64,000 bases of DNA from contig NZ_LWHG01000034.1 of NCBI RefSeq assembly GCF_001625445.1, positions 1-64,000 on the forward strand, in the 5' to 3' direction. Made by a program: the position numbers and the translations under genes. Each line of letters begins with the position of its first letter. Positions within the stretch are counted from its first letter, which is position 1. This stretch comes from Haladaptatus sp. R4. GTDB lineage: Archaea > Halobacteriota > Halobacteria > Halobacteriales > Haladaptataceae. Under the pieces are notes generated by a model. It saw only the letters and a list, made by a program, of their open reading frames with translations, was not told where the DNA came from and searched no databases. Shown piece after piece: positions 3,594-29,233 of this stretch.

Positions 3594-4878
3594 ATGGCAG
3601 AGTCAATCCGTGATCGACTTTCGGACGTCCGACGGTCTTTCCACCGGTACCCGGAACCCGCGTGGCGGGAGTTCTACAGCGACGCATCGTCTCGTCGAGG
3701 AGATTCGGGACATCGGCGTCGACGAACTCGCCGTCGGCACCGACGTGTACGACAGCGACGAGCGAATGGCCGTTCCGGACGCCGACGAGGTCGAGGAATG
3801 GCAGGAACGGGCGCTCGAACGCGGTGCCGACCCCGACCTCCTCGAAAAAATCGACGGGGGTAACACGGGCGTCGTCGCCGTTCTCGACCGAGGTTCCGGA
3901 CCCGTCGTCGGACTCCGCGTCGACATCGACGGCCTGTTCATCGAGGAATCGACGGGGGACGACCACGCGCCCGCCGACGCCGGGTTCCGGTCCGAAGGGG
4001 ACGGGACGATGCACGCCTGCGGTCACGACGCACACATGACGTGGGGGCTCGCGACCCTCGAAGCCGTCGCCGAGAGCGACTTCGACGGGAAGTTCGTCGC
4101 CTTCTTCCAACCCGCCGAGGAGGTGTCCGGCGGCGGTCACCCGATGGCCGAAAGCCGGTTCGCCGACGACTTGGACTACCTGTTCGCCGTCCACGTCGGT
4201 CTCGACCATCCCACGGGAGAGGTCGTCGCCGGAATCGAACGGCCGCTGGCAATGTCCCACGTCGACGTGACGTTCGAGGGAACGACCGCCCACGCCGGGA
4301 AAGCGCCCCAAGACGGCGACAACGCGATGCAGGCGCTCGGGACGGCCATCCAGAACGCCTACGCGATTCCGCGCCACGAGGACGGGATGACGCGCGTGAA
4401 CCTCGGACGGGCGGAGGCCGGAACGTCGAGCAACGTCATCGCCGATTTCGCCCACGTGGAGGCGGAAGTTGCGCGGGGCGAGACGACCGAACTCATGGAG
4501 TACATGCAGTCCCGGTTGGATAGGACGCTCGAAACCGCCGCCGAGATGCACGGCTGTGACGTGGACATCGACGTCCGGAGCAAATCCCCCCGTGCGGATA
4601 GCGACCCGGAACTCGCAGAGGTCGTGGCGGACGTTGCACGGAACGTCGAGGGCGTCGAGACCGTGCTCCCGTCCGCGGACTTCGGCGCGAGCGAGGACGC
4701 CACGTTCCTGATGGAGCGCGTGCAGGAGGACGGCGGCCTCGCCACGTACCTCATCGTCGGAACGGACCACCCGACGAGCCATCACACGCCGACGTTCGAC
4801 GTGGACGAACGAAGCCTCCCCATCGGCGTGGACGTGTTGGTCGAATCGATACTCGCCGTCGCGGACGACGGGCCATGA
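3594..4878 (+). CDS. M20 family metal-dependent amidohydrolase
   Basis: M20 peptidase/amidohydrolase (AbgA/hippurate-hydrolase type). Metal-site motifs MHACGHDAHMT and FQPAEEVSGGG and the C-terminal HPTSHHTPTFDVDE are present. The N-terminal MAESIRDRLSDVRRSFHRYP and the rest lie in different frames, joined near 3685, so one indel is likely. Its stop overlaps the next gene's ATG by 4 bp, suggesting translational coupling to the EutB-like enzyme. It sits where bacteria carry DoeB (N-acetyl-diaminobutyrate deacetylase), but DoeB is an aspartoacylase/AstE-fold enzyme; this protein may be a non-orthologous replacement. Another acyl-amino-acid substrate cannot be excluded. Confidence 0.8.
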
Positions 4879-19027: not shown

Positions 19028-20338
19028 TCCCAGTTGTACAGCGCGTCCACGAAGATACCGTGGACGTCCTCTTCCGTCACCGGACGGGGATTACAGCGGA
19101 GCAGTCGCGCCTGCGTGTCGACGGTCTGTTTCGCCAGCCAATCGACGTCGTCCTCGGTGATTCCGGCCAGTTCGTTGAGTCCGCTCGGCAGGACGTTCAG
19201 GTCGCGCTGAAGCTGAATGTACTCGGCTTTCAACTCGTCCGCGGCATCGCCGGGGGTCATTCCCGTGGTATCGACCCCGAACCGGCGGGCGAGCGCGGCG
19301 AAGCGTTTCGGGTCGCTCGCCGAGTTGTAGTCGATGGTACTCGCGGGGGTCAACACCCCGATGGTTTCGCCGTGGTAGGTGTGATACTTGTTTCCGACCG
19401 GATAGGCCATCGCGTGACAGAGGCTCGCGCCCGCCGTCAACCCCGCGATGGCACCGAAGAGCGCACCCTGTAGCATGTTCGCCCGAGCGTCGAGGTTGTC
19501 GCCGTTGTGAACTGCCTTTCGGACGTTGTTCGACAGGAGGTCGATGGCCTTCTCGGAGAACATCTCGGTGAGCGGCGTCCGTCCGGCGTAGACGGGACGT
19601 TCCGCCGGGTCGGTCGGCCGAAGGAGCGAGTCGAACTCGTGGGTGGTGTATCCCTCCATGGCGTGCCCGAGCGCGTCCATCGCCGTCTTCGCCGTCAACT
19701 CCGGCGGGAGCGTGGTCGTGAGCGTCGGGTCGAGCACCGCGGCGTCGGCGACGAACGTGGTTGCTGGAGATTCCCTCCTTGATCTCCTTTTCCTCCACCG
19801 AGAGGATGGAGACCGGCGAGATTTCCGCCCCGGTTCCCGCAGTCGTCGGCATCAGGACGAGCGGCGGACCGGATTCCGTGAGCGCCTCCCCTTCGCCGGT
19901 CGGGGCGGCAATGTAGTCCAGCGGACCGCCACCGTTGGCGATGACCGCGCGAGTCGTCTTCGCGGTGTCCATGCAACTGCCGCCCCCCAGACCGACGTAG
20001 AAGTCGTAGCCCTCCTCGCCTTTTTCGTCGCGGACGAACTTCAGACAGTCCTCGATATCCGAAACGGACGGTTCGCGGTTCGATTCGTCGTAGACATCGA
20101 CGGCGAGTTCGGCGTCGTCGAGGTGCGTCTCGACGCGGTCCACGTGGCCGATGTCCGCGAGCGTTTCGTCGGTGATGATGAGACCGTGAGCGTCCTCGTC
20201 AATCCCCAAATCGCGCAACTGGAAGGCGAGTTCGTCCGTCGCGTCCCTGCCGAACCGGATCTGTGGCATCTGGATGTGCCAGACGGTTTCCGGCGAGAGT
20301 TCGTGGGACGGCGCGGAGACCGACCGCTCGTAACTCAT
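19024..20338 (-). CDS. Iron-containing alcohol dehydrogenase, hydroxyacid-oxoacid transhydrogenase-like
   Basis: Fe-ADH fold, about 438 residues. GLGGGSCMDTAK (NAD/substrate loop), PTTAGTGAEISP and the metal histidines in DALGHAMEGYTTHEFD and LCHAMAYPVGNKYHTYHG are visible. The block FDSLLRPTDPAERPVYAG is characteristic of the ADHFE1/HOT subgroup, which oxidises 4-hydroxybutyrate with 2-oxoglutarate as acceptor. A frameshift near 19760 joins the two halves. One base separates it from the lactonase-like gene upstream in the same direction, so they should be co-transcribed. Confidence 0.8.
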
Positions 20339-23946: not shown

Positions 23947-24462
23947 ATGGTCACCGATTCCAAAGACGATGATACGCGTTTCTCGTGGGAAGCGACGGGG
24001 ACGATGGTGGTGGACGACGGCGTGGACGGGAGGGTCGCCATGACCGAGCGGGACCCCTTTCAGTCGTTCGTCGACGACCACGGCTACCTCTCGTGGCTCG
24101 ATCTCCGCGTCGAAACGGTCGAAGCGGGACACCTCGAAATGCGGGTGCCGTTCGACGAAAAACTCCTCAACCCGTTATGACGACGACGTCGTCCACGGCG
24201 GTATCGCGGCGACACTCGGCGAACCGCGAGCGGTTTCGCGCTTCGGACGACGTTGGACGACGCCGAGAGCGCCCGCCTCGTGACGACGGACCTCAACGTC
24301 TCGTACATCCGTCCGGCGGGCGACGACCTCCTCGCGGAAGCGAGGGTCGTCCGCTCCGGGGATTCGATGGGCGTCGTCCGCGTGACCGTGTGGACGCGCG
24401 GACCCGACGGGGAACGGACGGAAACGGCCGTCGGACGAACTTCGTACCGGATCTTTCGGTAA
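23947..24462 (+). CDS. PaaI-like hotdog thioesterase
   Basis: Hotdog-fold thioesterase of about 171 residues. The frame is lost near 24176 and regained near 24215; between them the other frame reads YDDDVVHGGIAATL, the HGG active-site helix of PaaI/4HBT enzymes. Flanks are in the same frame (FDEKLLNP before, TASGFALRTTLDDAES after), so two compensating indels explain the apparent stop at 24178. It should hydrolyse an acyl or aryl CoA thioester. Adjacent to the PaaG-like gene. Confidence 0.75.
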
Positions 24463-24465
24463 TAG

Positions 24466-24977
24466 TCAGCGAGTCTTCGACCGAAGTCGCTCGATGATGC
24501 TGTCGGTCTTGTCCATCTTCTCGATGTCGGTGATCTCGTCGCCGACGGCTATCTCCCCGCCTTCGACTACGTCCGCACAGACCCCACCTCGTCCGGCCTT
24601 GAGCGCGCGGGCGACGCCGTCCTGCTCGTTCAGTTGCTCGACGTGCGCACAGGCGGCCGCGGCCGCGTTCCCTCCAATACCGCGTCACCGATCCGGAATC
24701 GGTGCTTGAGCAGGTCGTGGACATCGATCCCCTCCGTAACGATGTTGCGTCGGTGTTCCCCGGCGGTCAGATCGAGACCGAACTCCCGGTTGATTTCGTC
24801 TATCGCTTCCGACGCGATCAGCGTCACCTGACAGACGTCGTACGGCGAGTAGTAGCCGGTGCCGTTGAAATAACGGTCGTTCAGGAGCCCCCTGTCGGCG
24901 ACAGCCTGTACGTCCGAAACCGACCGCATCGGCTCTGAGCCGTTCTCGGTGACGAAGAGCGCCGTGATGTGAGCCAT
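24466..24977 (-). CDS. MOSC domain protein
   Basis: Short MOSC (molybdenum cofactor sulfurase C-terminal) protein, about 170 residues. VTENGSEPMRSVSDVQAVAD, GYYSPYDVCQVTLIASEAID and HRRNIVTEGIDVHDLL are visible; the conserved cysteine of the C-terminal part (RPCAHVEQLNEQDGVARALK) is in a second frame after an indel near 24650. Such stand-alone MOSC proteins bind or transfer sulfur-Moco in detoxification or assembly. Convergent with the thioesterase with a 3-bp gap. Confidence 0.75.
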
Positions 24978-25153
24978 ACGCGACCTTGGTCATGGACGGG
25001 GATAATGACGACGGACGTGACGGTCGATACCGGTTCAGGCACCGTATACCGACGACGCAAGCACCGACTGGCAGGACGACAGCCACCACATAACAATGAT
25101 CGAACCGGCCATTGGTTGGTATGCAGGTCGCACTGAATCAGGTCTCACGTGCC

Positions 25154-25241
25154 ACACCGTTCGGCCGTTGGTTCGGCCGACGTGTCCGTCTGTCAGTAGT
25201 CATCCGTCGTACGCTCGCACGGTCGGCGCAACGCCGACCGT
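25154..25241. ncRNA. Serial hairpins in a gene-free gap, candidate structured RNA
   Basis: Between 24978 and 25416 no gene is convincing. A helix at 25154-25185 has a perfect 7-bp core (TCGGCCG / CGGCCGA, 6-nt loop) extended by 5 more pairs with two single bulges. A second hairpin at 25219-25241 has a perfect 10-bp stem ACGGTCGGCG / CGCCGACCGT with a CAA loop. The tRNA-like element follows at 25268. Such a density of perfect helices is not expected in an idle spacer. Confidence 0.45.
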
Positions 25242-25267
25242 ACTCGCGTTTTCGATGGAATCCCGGA

Positions 25268-25373
25268 GAACGGGTCGCTCGCTGGTAAGAGCACCATCGT
25301 CGGACGAAGGCTCTCGTCCGACCGATGGCGGCTATCCTCGATAGCCCCGGTGGTTCGAATCCACCCCCGTTCG
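25268..25373 (+). ncRNA. tRNA-like cloverleaf without a normal anticodon loop
   Basis: A 106-nt element folds by eye into a type II cloverleaf: acceptor GAACGGG (25268-25274) with CCCGTTC (25366-25372) and G73; D-arm GCTC-GCTGGTAA-GAGC (25277-25292); variable arm GGCTATC-CTC-GATAGCC (25330-25346); T-arm GGTGG-TTCGAAT-CCACC (25349-25365), with the consensus T-loop. All four stems pair fully. In place of the anticodon arm is a 14-bp hairpin (25294-25328) with one bulged C and loop AGGCTC, with no U33-anticodon arrangement. Position 9 is C and the D-loop lacks A14, so it is not a standard tRNA. A T-rich stretch follows at 25374. Serine-type tRNA descent is a guess from the long arm and G73. Confidence 0.5.
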
Positions 25374-25416
25374 TTCCTTTTCGAGATGTCGGATTCGGAA
25401 GTGACGTCGCCAGCGG

Positions 25417-27091: not shown

Positions 27092-28809
27092 TCAGTCCCC
27101 CTCGTCACCATCGGCGGGGCGGGCGGAAGTCCCACCGCCGCCGCCACCACCCCCGAGCAGCACGTCGTCGTCCTCCCGTATCGAGGCACCTTCCTGAACG
27201 AGCACGCGTCCTTTGAAACTGCTGAACTCCTTTATCATCCCGTACACGCCGACGAGTCCGACGATGGCGACCGGTCCGCCGGTGATGATGGCGGCCTGCT
27301 GGAGCGCGTTGGTTCCGCCGATGACGATGAGGACGGCGGCGACGAGTCCCTGAAGGACGCCCCAGATGAGGCGGTTGAGTTCCGAGGGGTGCTCCTCCCC
27401 GCCGGTGGTCAGCATGGCGATGCCGAGCGTCGAGGAGTCGGCCGACGTGACGAAGAACGTGATGACCAGCAGGAAGAACAGACCGGATAACAGGGCACCC
27501 GCCGGGAGCGCGCCGAACAACGGATACCCGGCGACGGCCTCGTTGTTGCCGTAGTTCGCGAGGACGCCGAGGATGTTCGCCCGGCCGAGTTGCTGCATCC
27601 GCATCGACATCCCGCCGATGACGAGGAACCACGGGACGGTCGCCAGCGTCGTCGCGACGACGCCGACGAACGTCACTTCGCGGATGGTTCGTCCGTACGA
27701 AATCCGCGCGAGGAAGATACCCGAGAAGGGGGCCCACGAAAACCACCACGCCCAGTAGAAGATGGTCCACGCCCCGACGAACGATGAACCGGTCGCCGCG
27801 CCGGTGAACAGGCTCATCTTGATGAACTGGTTGAGATACCGGCCGACGGACTGCGTCCCAAGATTGAGCACGAACGAGGCCATCCCGTTGTAGATGCCGA
27901 TACAGAAGACCAACACCCCCAGCAGGACGAACACGATGACGTTCAACTGCGACAGGCGTTTGATACCCTTCTCGACGCCGCTGAGGACCGAGAGCGTGAA
28001 CACCGTCGTCACGCCGATGATGACGAGAATGATGCCGAGGTCGCCGAGTTGGACGCCGAAGATATCGATCGGAAGCGCGGACGCCGCCTGCGACGGCGTC
28101 GCGCCGACCCGAACTGGTAGTCCATCCCCATCAGCAACTGCTGGCCGATGAACCCGAGCGACGTGGCGATGCCGCCCATCGTCCCGAACACCGCGATGAG
28201 GTCGACGACGCGCGCGAAGTAGCTGTCGTCTAGATTATCGACGCCGACGATGGGCGCGATGACCGTCGAGAACTTGAACGGCGCACCCTTCTTGTGTGCG
28301 TAGTAGCCGATGGGAACGCCGACGATGAGGTAGGCCGCCCACGCCGAGATTCCCCAGTGGAAGAACGTGTACTGAAGCGACCCCAACATACGCTGTTTCG
28401 CGGGGGCGTCCGCACCGGCGAGGGGCGTCCCGCTCCCGTAGTGGAAGATGGCCTCCGCCGGACCCCAGAAGACGATTCCGGCGGCGATTCCGGCGGAGAA
28501 GAACATCGCAAAATAGGAGAGGAAACTGTGTCTCGGTTCCGCGTCGGGCGGACCGAGTTTGATCTTTCCCCACGGGCCGAAGATGAGGAACGTCGTGAAG
28601 CCGACGAATATCAACATCGCCCAGAGGTAGAACCACGAGAAGTTGGACCACAGCCAGTGGTTGACCCCTTTCATTGCAGTTCCTGCTGCTTCCGGGCCGA
28701 CGATTGCGACGTACAGAAGGAACGCAACCGCGGTCAGAATACCGAACCCGAACACCAGCGGATCGATCTCGTCTACGAACTCGCGTATGTAACCTTGTTG
28801 TTGGCTCAT
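27092..28809 (-). CDS. BCCT family betaine/choline-type transporter
   Basis: Multi-helix BCCT protein. FGPWGKIKLG, FSAGIAAGIVFWGPAEA, the canonical WTIFYWAWWFSWAP block and VTSADSSTLGIAMLTTGG are all present. A frameshift near 28100 joins GMDYQFG to the next segment. The C-terminus is an acidic, glycine-rich tail (a run of eight Gly). It lies at the head of the betaine demethylation genes, so import of glycine betaine is likely; substrate coupling cannot be read from sequence. ATG 28809 chosen where the family homology (MSQQQGYIREFVDEIDP) starts. Confidence 0.88.
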
Positions 28810-29233
28810 GTTGCTCCTACTCCTATCGGAGTGTGCAGGACGCCGTACTGCGTCGTTCGAGCGGTCGGCGACGATATCTTCGGTCCCCGGCAAATCGCGG
28901 TCCCCGCGACGGTGATTTCCGAACCGGTTGTATCACGATTATCAGATCGTGACCCGGGACGATGGACGAACGATGCGGATTCGACGGCGTGCGCGAATCC
29001 GTGCCCCGTCATACCATGACACAATACTACATGCGTTTCTCTTGAGAGTCGATAATAATAGCTCGTGTTTGTATACTGTGGTGTACTTAAGCACAGATGA
29101 AAATTTAACGGCCGTTTCGTTTTACCGTAATCCCGTTCCGGAAGGTTTCATTTAAAACCGTCAGATCCACAAAATCGGTGAGTAGCCGACGCACGGCGAG
29201 TAGCTGGCCACGAATGTCATATATCATACAGAA
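28810..29233. other. Intergenic region with inverted repeat
   Basis: No convincing gene. TCACGAT (28933-28939) and ATCGTGA (28946-28952) form a 7-bp inverted repeat with a 6-nt spacer, about 125 nt upstream of the BCCT start, and include CACGATTATCA shared with the aminotransferase promoter at 12188. A second pair, CTGTG...CACAG with GTGTACTTAAGCAC between, lies near 29078-29098. Confidence 0.45.

Follow-up and report, generated by a model that had tools for sequence, protein, structure and literature searches.

Background

The nearest described counterparts of the element analyzed here are the t-elements of Haloferax volcanii, which reportedly comprise a tRNA-like structure upstream of the 5S ribosomal RNA (rRNA) and are said to have been described by Hoelzle et al. 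in 2008 and 2012. The t-elements show that Haloferax enzymes accept structures resembling a transfer RNA (tRNA) (PMC4326828). In this work, we describe a tRNA-like, non-decoding element in Haladaptatus sp. R4, at positions 25268-25373 of a window of 64,000 nucleotides (the whole stretch analyzed, positions 1 to 64,000 of contig NZ_LWHG01000034.1, assembly GCF_001625445.1); it lies on the forward strand, as do all parts of the predicted gene described below. Like the t-elements, it is haloarchaeal, tRNA-like and non-decoding, and features a T-arm and an acceptor; in contrast to them, it is a full cloverleaf with a putative promoter of its own. With its relatives it makes up an RNA family previously uncatalogued and distributed across salt-loving archaea. 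Only t-element papers were found on the subject in a literature search, and the 2012 survey by Hoelzle et al. may overlap with the present set and list some of the genes named type A below.

The genome of the window also contains, directly before a 5S rRNA and within the rRNA transcript, a mini tRNA-like element made of a T-arm and a short acceptor (L311, G000:C14 ~4070-4139), likely the t-element of this genome. Homology of our element to this structure was rejected, as the 5S locus gave no R2 match, only short chance matches.

Among other known systems, transfer-messenger RNA (tmRNA) shares the tRNA upper half and the lack of an anticodon, but the element, which is archaeal, has a real D stem and neither a reading frame nor an mRNA-like domain; a tmRNA was rejected on the negative ARAGORN tmRNA scan of the window and on lengths not constant modulo 3. 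The bacterial Y RNA YrlA is similarly a non-coding RNA with a tRNA-like module, which in our element, however, is 3'-terminal; this candidate is disfavoured because the TROVE/Ro60 partner, found in 6 out of 117 genomes, was not found in the window's genome or in three other Haladaptatus genomes searched. TROVE (Ro60-like) proteins do occur in a few haloarchaea (G009, G030, G046, G097, G111 and G116). Rfam, at its gathering threshold, found no match in the window, and relaxed thresholds returned sub-threshold matches only, the best being tRNA-Sec (RF01852), likewise endowed with a long variable arm. tRNA-Sec was rejected because its scores, 25.8-36.5 bits, stay below the gathering score of 47; moreover, the element has 7+5 arms, not the 9+4 or 8+5 of a 13-bp acceptor plus T arm, a 4-bp D stem instead of one of 6-7 bp, and no UCA anticodon. 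Class II tRNA-Ser and tRNA-Leu are similar in overall cloverleaf and long variable arm, but the element has no anticodon loop, and its type-A relatives differ further by a bulged T stem.

Results

The tRNA-like domain rests on fold, alignment and a covariance model. In the window copy, the acceptor stem pairs GAACGGG (25268-25274, invariant in 19 copies) with CCCGTTC (25366-25372) over 7 bp, and is followed at 25373 by a discriminator G, found in 20 out of 20 scored copies. The D arm, GCTC-GCTGGTAA-GAGC (25277-25292), has a perfectly paired stem of 4 bp, with a compensatory change at the inner pair among relatives. Where an anticodon arm would be expected, at 25294-25328, lies a hairpin of 14 bp with one bulged C, CCATCGTCGGACGA-AGGCTC-TCGTCCGA(C)CGATGG, the length and sequence of which vary in nearly every copy. 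It is followed by a long variable arm of 7 bp, GGCTATC-CTC-GATAGCC (25330-25346), showing compensatory changes with respect to the GGCCAC/GTGGCC of relatives, and by the T arm GGTGG-TTCGAAT-CCACC (25349-25365). The arms, consensus T-loop and replacing hairpin listed in the original prediction are thus all present in the fold, whose energy, -58.6 kcal/mol, compares with -38.2 +/- 3.6 for shuffled sequences (z = -5.7; none of 200 shuffles as stable). A D-loop GG, a T-loop TTCRANN and a 7-bp acceptor are tRNA features found in the element; the canonical D-loop GG and a T-loop TTCGANT are part of the tRNA shape recognized by RNase P and tRNase Z. Downstream, a T-rich tail (25374-25381) is a probable terminator or trailer: the first 8 bases after the 3' end average 49% T in 20 copies, versus a background of 24%.

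A DNA search detected the element in most Haladaptatus genomes, often in several copies, on both chromosomes and megaplasmids. For this group, hereafter type B, a covariance model was built from 19 copies; with it, the window's own genome yields 3 copies and another genome up to 11 above a stricter threshold, and 8 out of 9 Haladaptatus genomes were positive in an order-wide search. The megaplasmid gene table, which holds no RNA genes, has no feature at the copies. The covariance analysis of related copies, proposed earlier as a check, speaks for the stems: 98.4% of pair cells are kept across the 19 aligned relatives, the acceptor is invariant, and compensatory changes affect the D stem, the hairpin and the variable stem. 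At the anticodon place nearly every copy has a different hairpin, the shortest, in relatives of 90 nt, being 8 bp with a loop of 5 nt and others reaching long forms; the long variable arm is strictly kept. Since this architecture is shared by many independently sequenced genomes, an indel artefact hiding a normal tRNA appears very unlikely. No viral match was obtained in searches of phages and viral contigs; plasmid searches found only Haladaptatus megaplasmids, plus one Halorientalis plasmid carrying type A.

The two hairpins noted earlier upstream of the cloverleaf are found at 25154-25185, in a form peculiar to the window copy, and at 25219-25241, the latter being a perfect 10-bp stem with a CAA loop; across 26 copies, 7 pairs of this second hairpin show changes on both sides. 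In the 26 type-B copies with intact ends, which were aligned for this analysis, a leader of about 150 nt with two hairpins separates the tRNA-like part from a promoter-like box, ATAACAA, located 162-199 bp upstream of the acceptor in 26 out of 26. In the window, the box is at 25089, within GCCACCA + CATAACAATG (25081-25098); if it works as a promoter, the transcript would start at about 25115 and its leader span 25115-25267. Relatives share a different hairpin 1, CGAGCGTC/GACGCTCG, which is 90% paired. Overall, 12 out of 18 leader pairs are changed on both sides, with a covariation score of 0.36 versus 0.205 for shuffled alignments (0 out of 500 shuffles as high) and at most 0.126 for slid controls. 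The promoter box, the covarying leader and outer flanks mostly unrelated between copies indicate that upstream hairpins and cloverleaf, as judged from their sequences, belong to a single gene, which recurs as a unit together with a promoter motif. Before processing, its transcript would probably measure about 260 nt, rather than the 106 nt suggested earlier.

Shorter, chromosomal relatives, type A, were recognized beyond Haladaptatus as well as in the window's genome, where a gene called "tRNA-Ser(act)" by ARAGORN is a homologue of the element, with a GGAAGGG acceptor, a normal D arm, a non-decoding hairpin and, bearing a bulged U, the T stem GCG-T-GG/CC-CGC. Type A is characterized by an invariant GGAAGGG/CCCTTCC acceptor, a bulged T-stem (family f8 has a C bulge, closer to the loop) and a hypervariable hairpin region, going from a UUCG tetraloop or a 3-nt loop on five pairs up to more than 50 nt. 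Several clades have lost the variable arm or show it merged. Of 77 discriminators, 39 are G and 36 are A, with differences even within the genus Haloferax. A TATA-like box near -30, close to the acceptor, leaves almost no leader. A model built from 30 type-A sequences matches, at a threshold of at least 57 bits, 141 out of 293 Halobacteriales genomes, one of them (G121) with a divergent type; as 13 candidates were scored per genome, presence counts are probably lower bounds. The ordinary tRNA-Ser genes inspected score about 56-64 bits outside Halobacteriales and about 53 bits inside; since these ranges touch, scores alone are insufficient and sequences were inspected. Outside Halobacteriales no homologue was found, the five matches inspected there being ordinary tRNA-Ser. 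Examples come from Haloferax, Haloarcula, Halorussus, Halorientalis, Halobellus, Halogranum and Halalkalicoccus. About 40 loci have sdhB/sdhA upstream; as other type-A loci have other neighbors, we read this as position, not function. A third relative, with a GAAAGGG/CCCTTTC acceptor, a paired T stem, a long variable arm and no anticodon, occurs in genera other than Haladaptatus (L298 in G121 and L300 in G195).

Two further kinds of sequence were observed around type A. In Halomarina species and a Halobacteriales metagenome-assembled genome, the type-A T-arm and 3' acceptor are combined with a rearranged D arm, e.g. GGTAGAAGTCG (L193, L212, L232). Repeats of the tRNA 3' half, spaced about 100 bp apart, follow type-A genes as well as a normal tRNA-Leu (L136:751-2421, L110, L122, L127), with the core GGATTCG...CAGACGAGCG...GAGTCTT; they resemble stacked remnants of att sites or a small family of repeats.

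A decoding tRNA (RF00005) is defined by a constant anticodon and by a 5-bp stem carrying an anticodon loop of 7 nt; the element and its relatives show neither, and hairpins of 8-14 bp are found instead. With introns allowed, ARAGORN calls as tRNAs 49 out of 78 type-A and 18 out of 20 type-B sequences, by inventing introns and assigning dozens of different anticodons. Because these anticodons are mutually inconsistent, the RNAs are, from their sequences, judged not to be a decoding tRNA family. The earlier statements that the element cannot decode and cannot be spliced to a normal tRNA are borne out by the short arms and loops of the relatives, be it 8-bp stems closed by 5-nt loops in the 90-nt forms or UUCG and 3-nt loops elsewhere, together with the inconsistency of the forced anticodons; the non-decoding hairpins and the same inconsistency also support a tRNA mimic or tRNA-derived RNA, as first proposed.

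Discussion

Family, structure, covariation, promoter motif and lack of an anticodon can be read directly in the aligned copies; transcription, processing and action in trans are what we infer from them. Taken together, we lean, with some reserve, towards a genuine non-coding RNA gene, transcribed and processed as a tRNA, whose product would be a non-decoding tRNA mimic acting in trans. A promoter at about 25089 would drive a precursor of about 260 nt, made of the two-hairpin leader followed by a tRNA-like domain of class II shape. The putative promoter, the canonical elbow, the clean acceptor and the T-rich tail together suggest a tRNA-like maturation, in which RNase P would very probably cut at 25267/25268, while the 3' end could be produced by tRNase Z trimming or by termination at the T-run, possibly with CCA addition. 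With the anticodon replaced by a variable hairpin, no decoding is expected, and elbow and acceptor half would be what is kept. Since conservation concentrates on these two parts, action in trans on a tRNA-binding partner appears the most economical reading; most likely, the RNA would occupy or regulate a tRNA-binding enzyme or a ribosome-associated factor. A bulge in the T stem, such as that of type A, should weaken elongation factor binding, and is in line with a role outside translation.

Several observations weigh against this proposal. The usual hairpin 1 is absent from the window copy, which retains hairpin 2 only; acceptor and T stems are nearly unchanging, so that they contribute little covariation evidence; and the neighborhood comparison found no gene neighbor common to most type-B copies. 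Activity could, moreover, reside in the leader, with the tRNA-like part as no more than its processing signal. In such an arrangement, which we consider unlikely on the whole, the tRNA-like part would act in cis, in the manner of a t-element, its sole purpose being cleavage by RNase P and tRNase Z, and the two-hairpin leader would be the working small RNA. The structured, covarying leader would fit. However, type A shares the tRNA-like design but has almost no leader, mean column identity is 77% in the tRNA-like part and 50% in the leader, and a bare acceptor plus T-arm would be enough for cutting, as at 5S.

Serine identity elements include G73 and a long variable arm, both constant in type B (G73 in 20 out of 20), and a serine-accepting tRNA working as an aminoacylated carrier outside translation may be imagined. 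Serine charging fits type B, but not type A, given its mixed discriminator and its lost or merged variable arms; furthermore, aminoacyl-tRNA-dependent lipid transferases (PF09924) have no match in 117 Halobacteriales genomes. The carrier is therefore disfavoured, and we hold it to be rather improbable.

The dispersal of copies over chromosomes and megaplasmids, and the partial tRNA 3'-half repeats found behind some type-A genes, much as behind a normal tRNA, might also evoke a mobile element, non-autonomous and of tRNA-gene origin, or the integration-site remnant envisaged in the original prediction. Promoter, leader and stems maintained by compensatory change recur at mostly unrelated sites, and copies have neither element ends nor cargo in common beyond the gene itself; the remnant is not supported by this comparison, and remnant and mobile element alike have, in our estimate, quite a small chance of being correct.

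VapC/PIN nucleases include enzymes that cut tRNAs, and an RNA serving as their decoy or antitoxin would be suggested by a convergent PIN/VapB pair about 70-75 bp downstream of two type-B copies (L033:20001-20847, L036:6001-6906) and by PIN genes within a few kb of the type-A copy on the Halorientalis plasmid. VapBC systems are very common among haloarchaea, the remaining annotated plasmid copies have no directly adjacent pair, and one shared block accounts for the cases seen, making a decoy very improbable. An intron-containing tRNA, its anticodon restored by splicing, is hardly conceivable: haloarchaea do have intron-bearing tRNAs, such as the Met tRNA of the window's genome, but the 45 RF00005 matches of that genome, which include the type-A homologue, already provide a full tRNA set, and neither the short arms and loops of the relatives nor anticodons that change between copies are compatible with it.

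Returning to the non-decoding mimic acting in trans, the occurrence of an anticodon-less tRNA fold, with its invariant acceptor and unusual bulged T stem, in roughly every second Halobacteriales genome searched points to an unrecognized use of tRNA structure in archaea. If true, a trans-acting regulator or adaptor would be an archaeal RNA comparable in kind to tmRNA or Y RNA. As a tentative extension, Halobacteria may keep an ancient tRNA-shaped RNA, no longer decoding, as such a regulator or adaptor, amplified in Haladaptatus to a subfamily of several leader-bearing copies, each of which would possibly owe a specificity of its own to the hypervariable hairpin. Experimental tests are within reach, type A being found in Haloferax species, close kin of the genetic model H. 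volcanii. On the practical side, as ARAGORN mistakes many of these genes for tRNAs with odd anticodons, tRNA gene counts can be corrupted.

A MOSC-domain gene and an acyl-CoA dehydrogenase gene flank the gap that hosts the element. This gap had been described as gene-free, and this holds on both strands except for one short open reading frame (25096-25344), the frame of which is not preserved among relatives. A coding reading of the element was rejected, as indels among copies break the frame and element lengths are not constant modulo 3. Elsewhere in the window, the Fe-ADH, MOSC and BCCT transporter genes (19091-20338, 24293-24977 and 27092-28893, respectively) are split across frames, which suggests assembly indels or pseudogenes in the contig.
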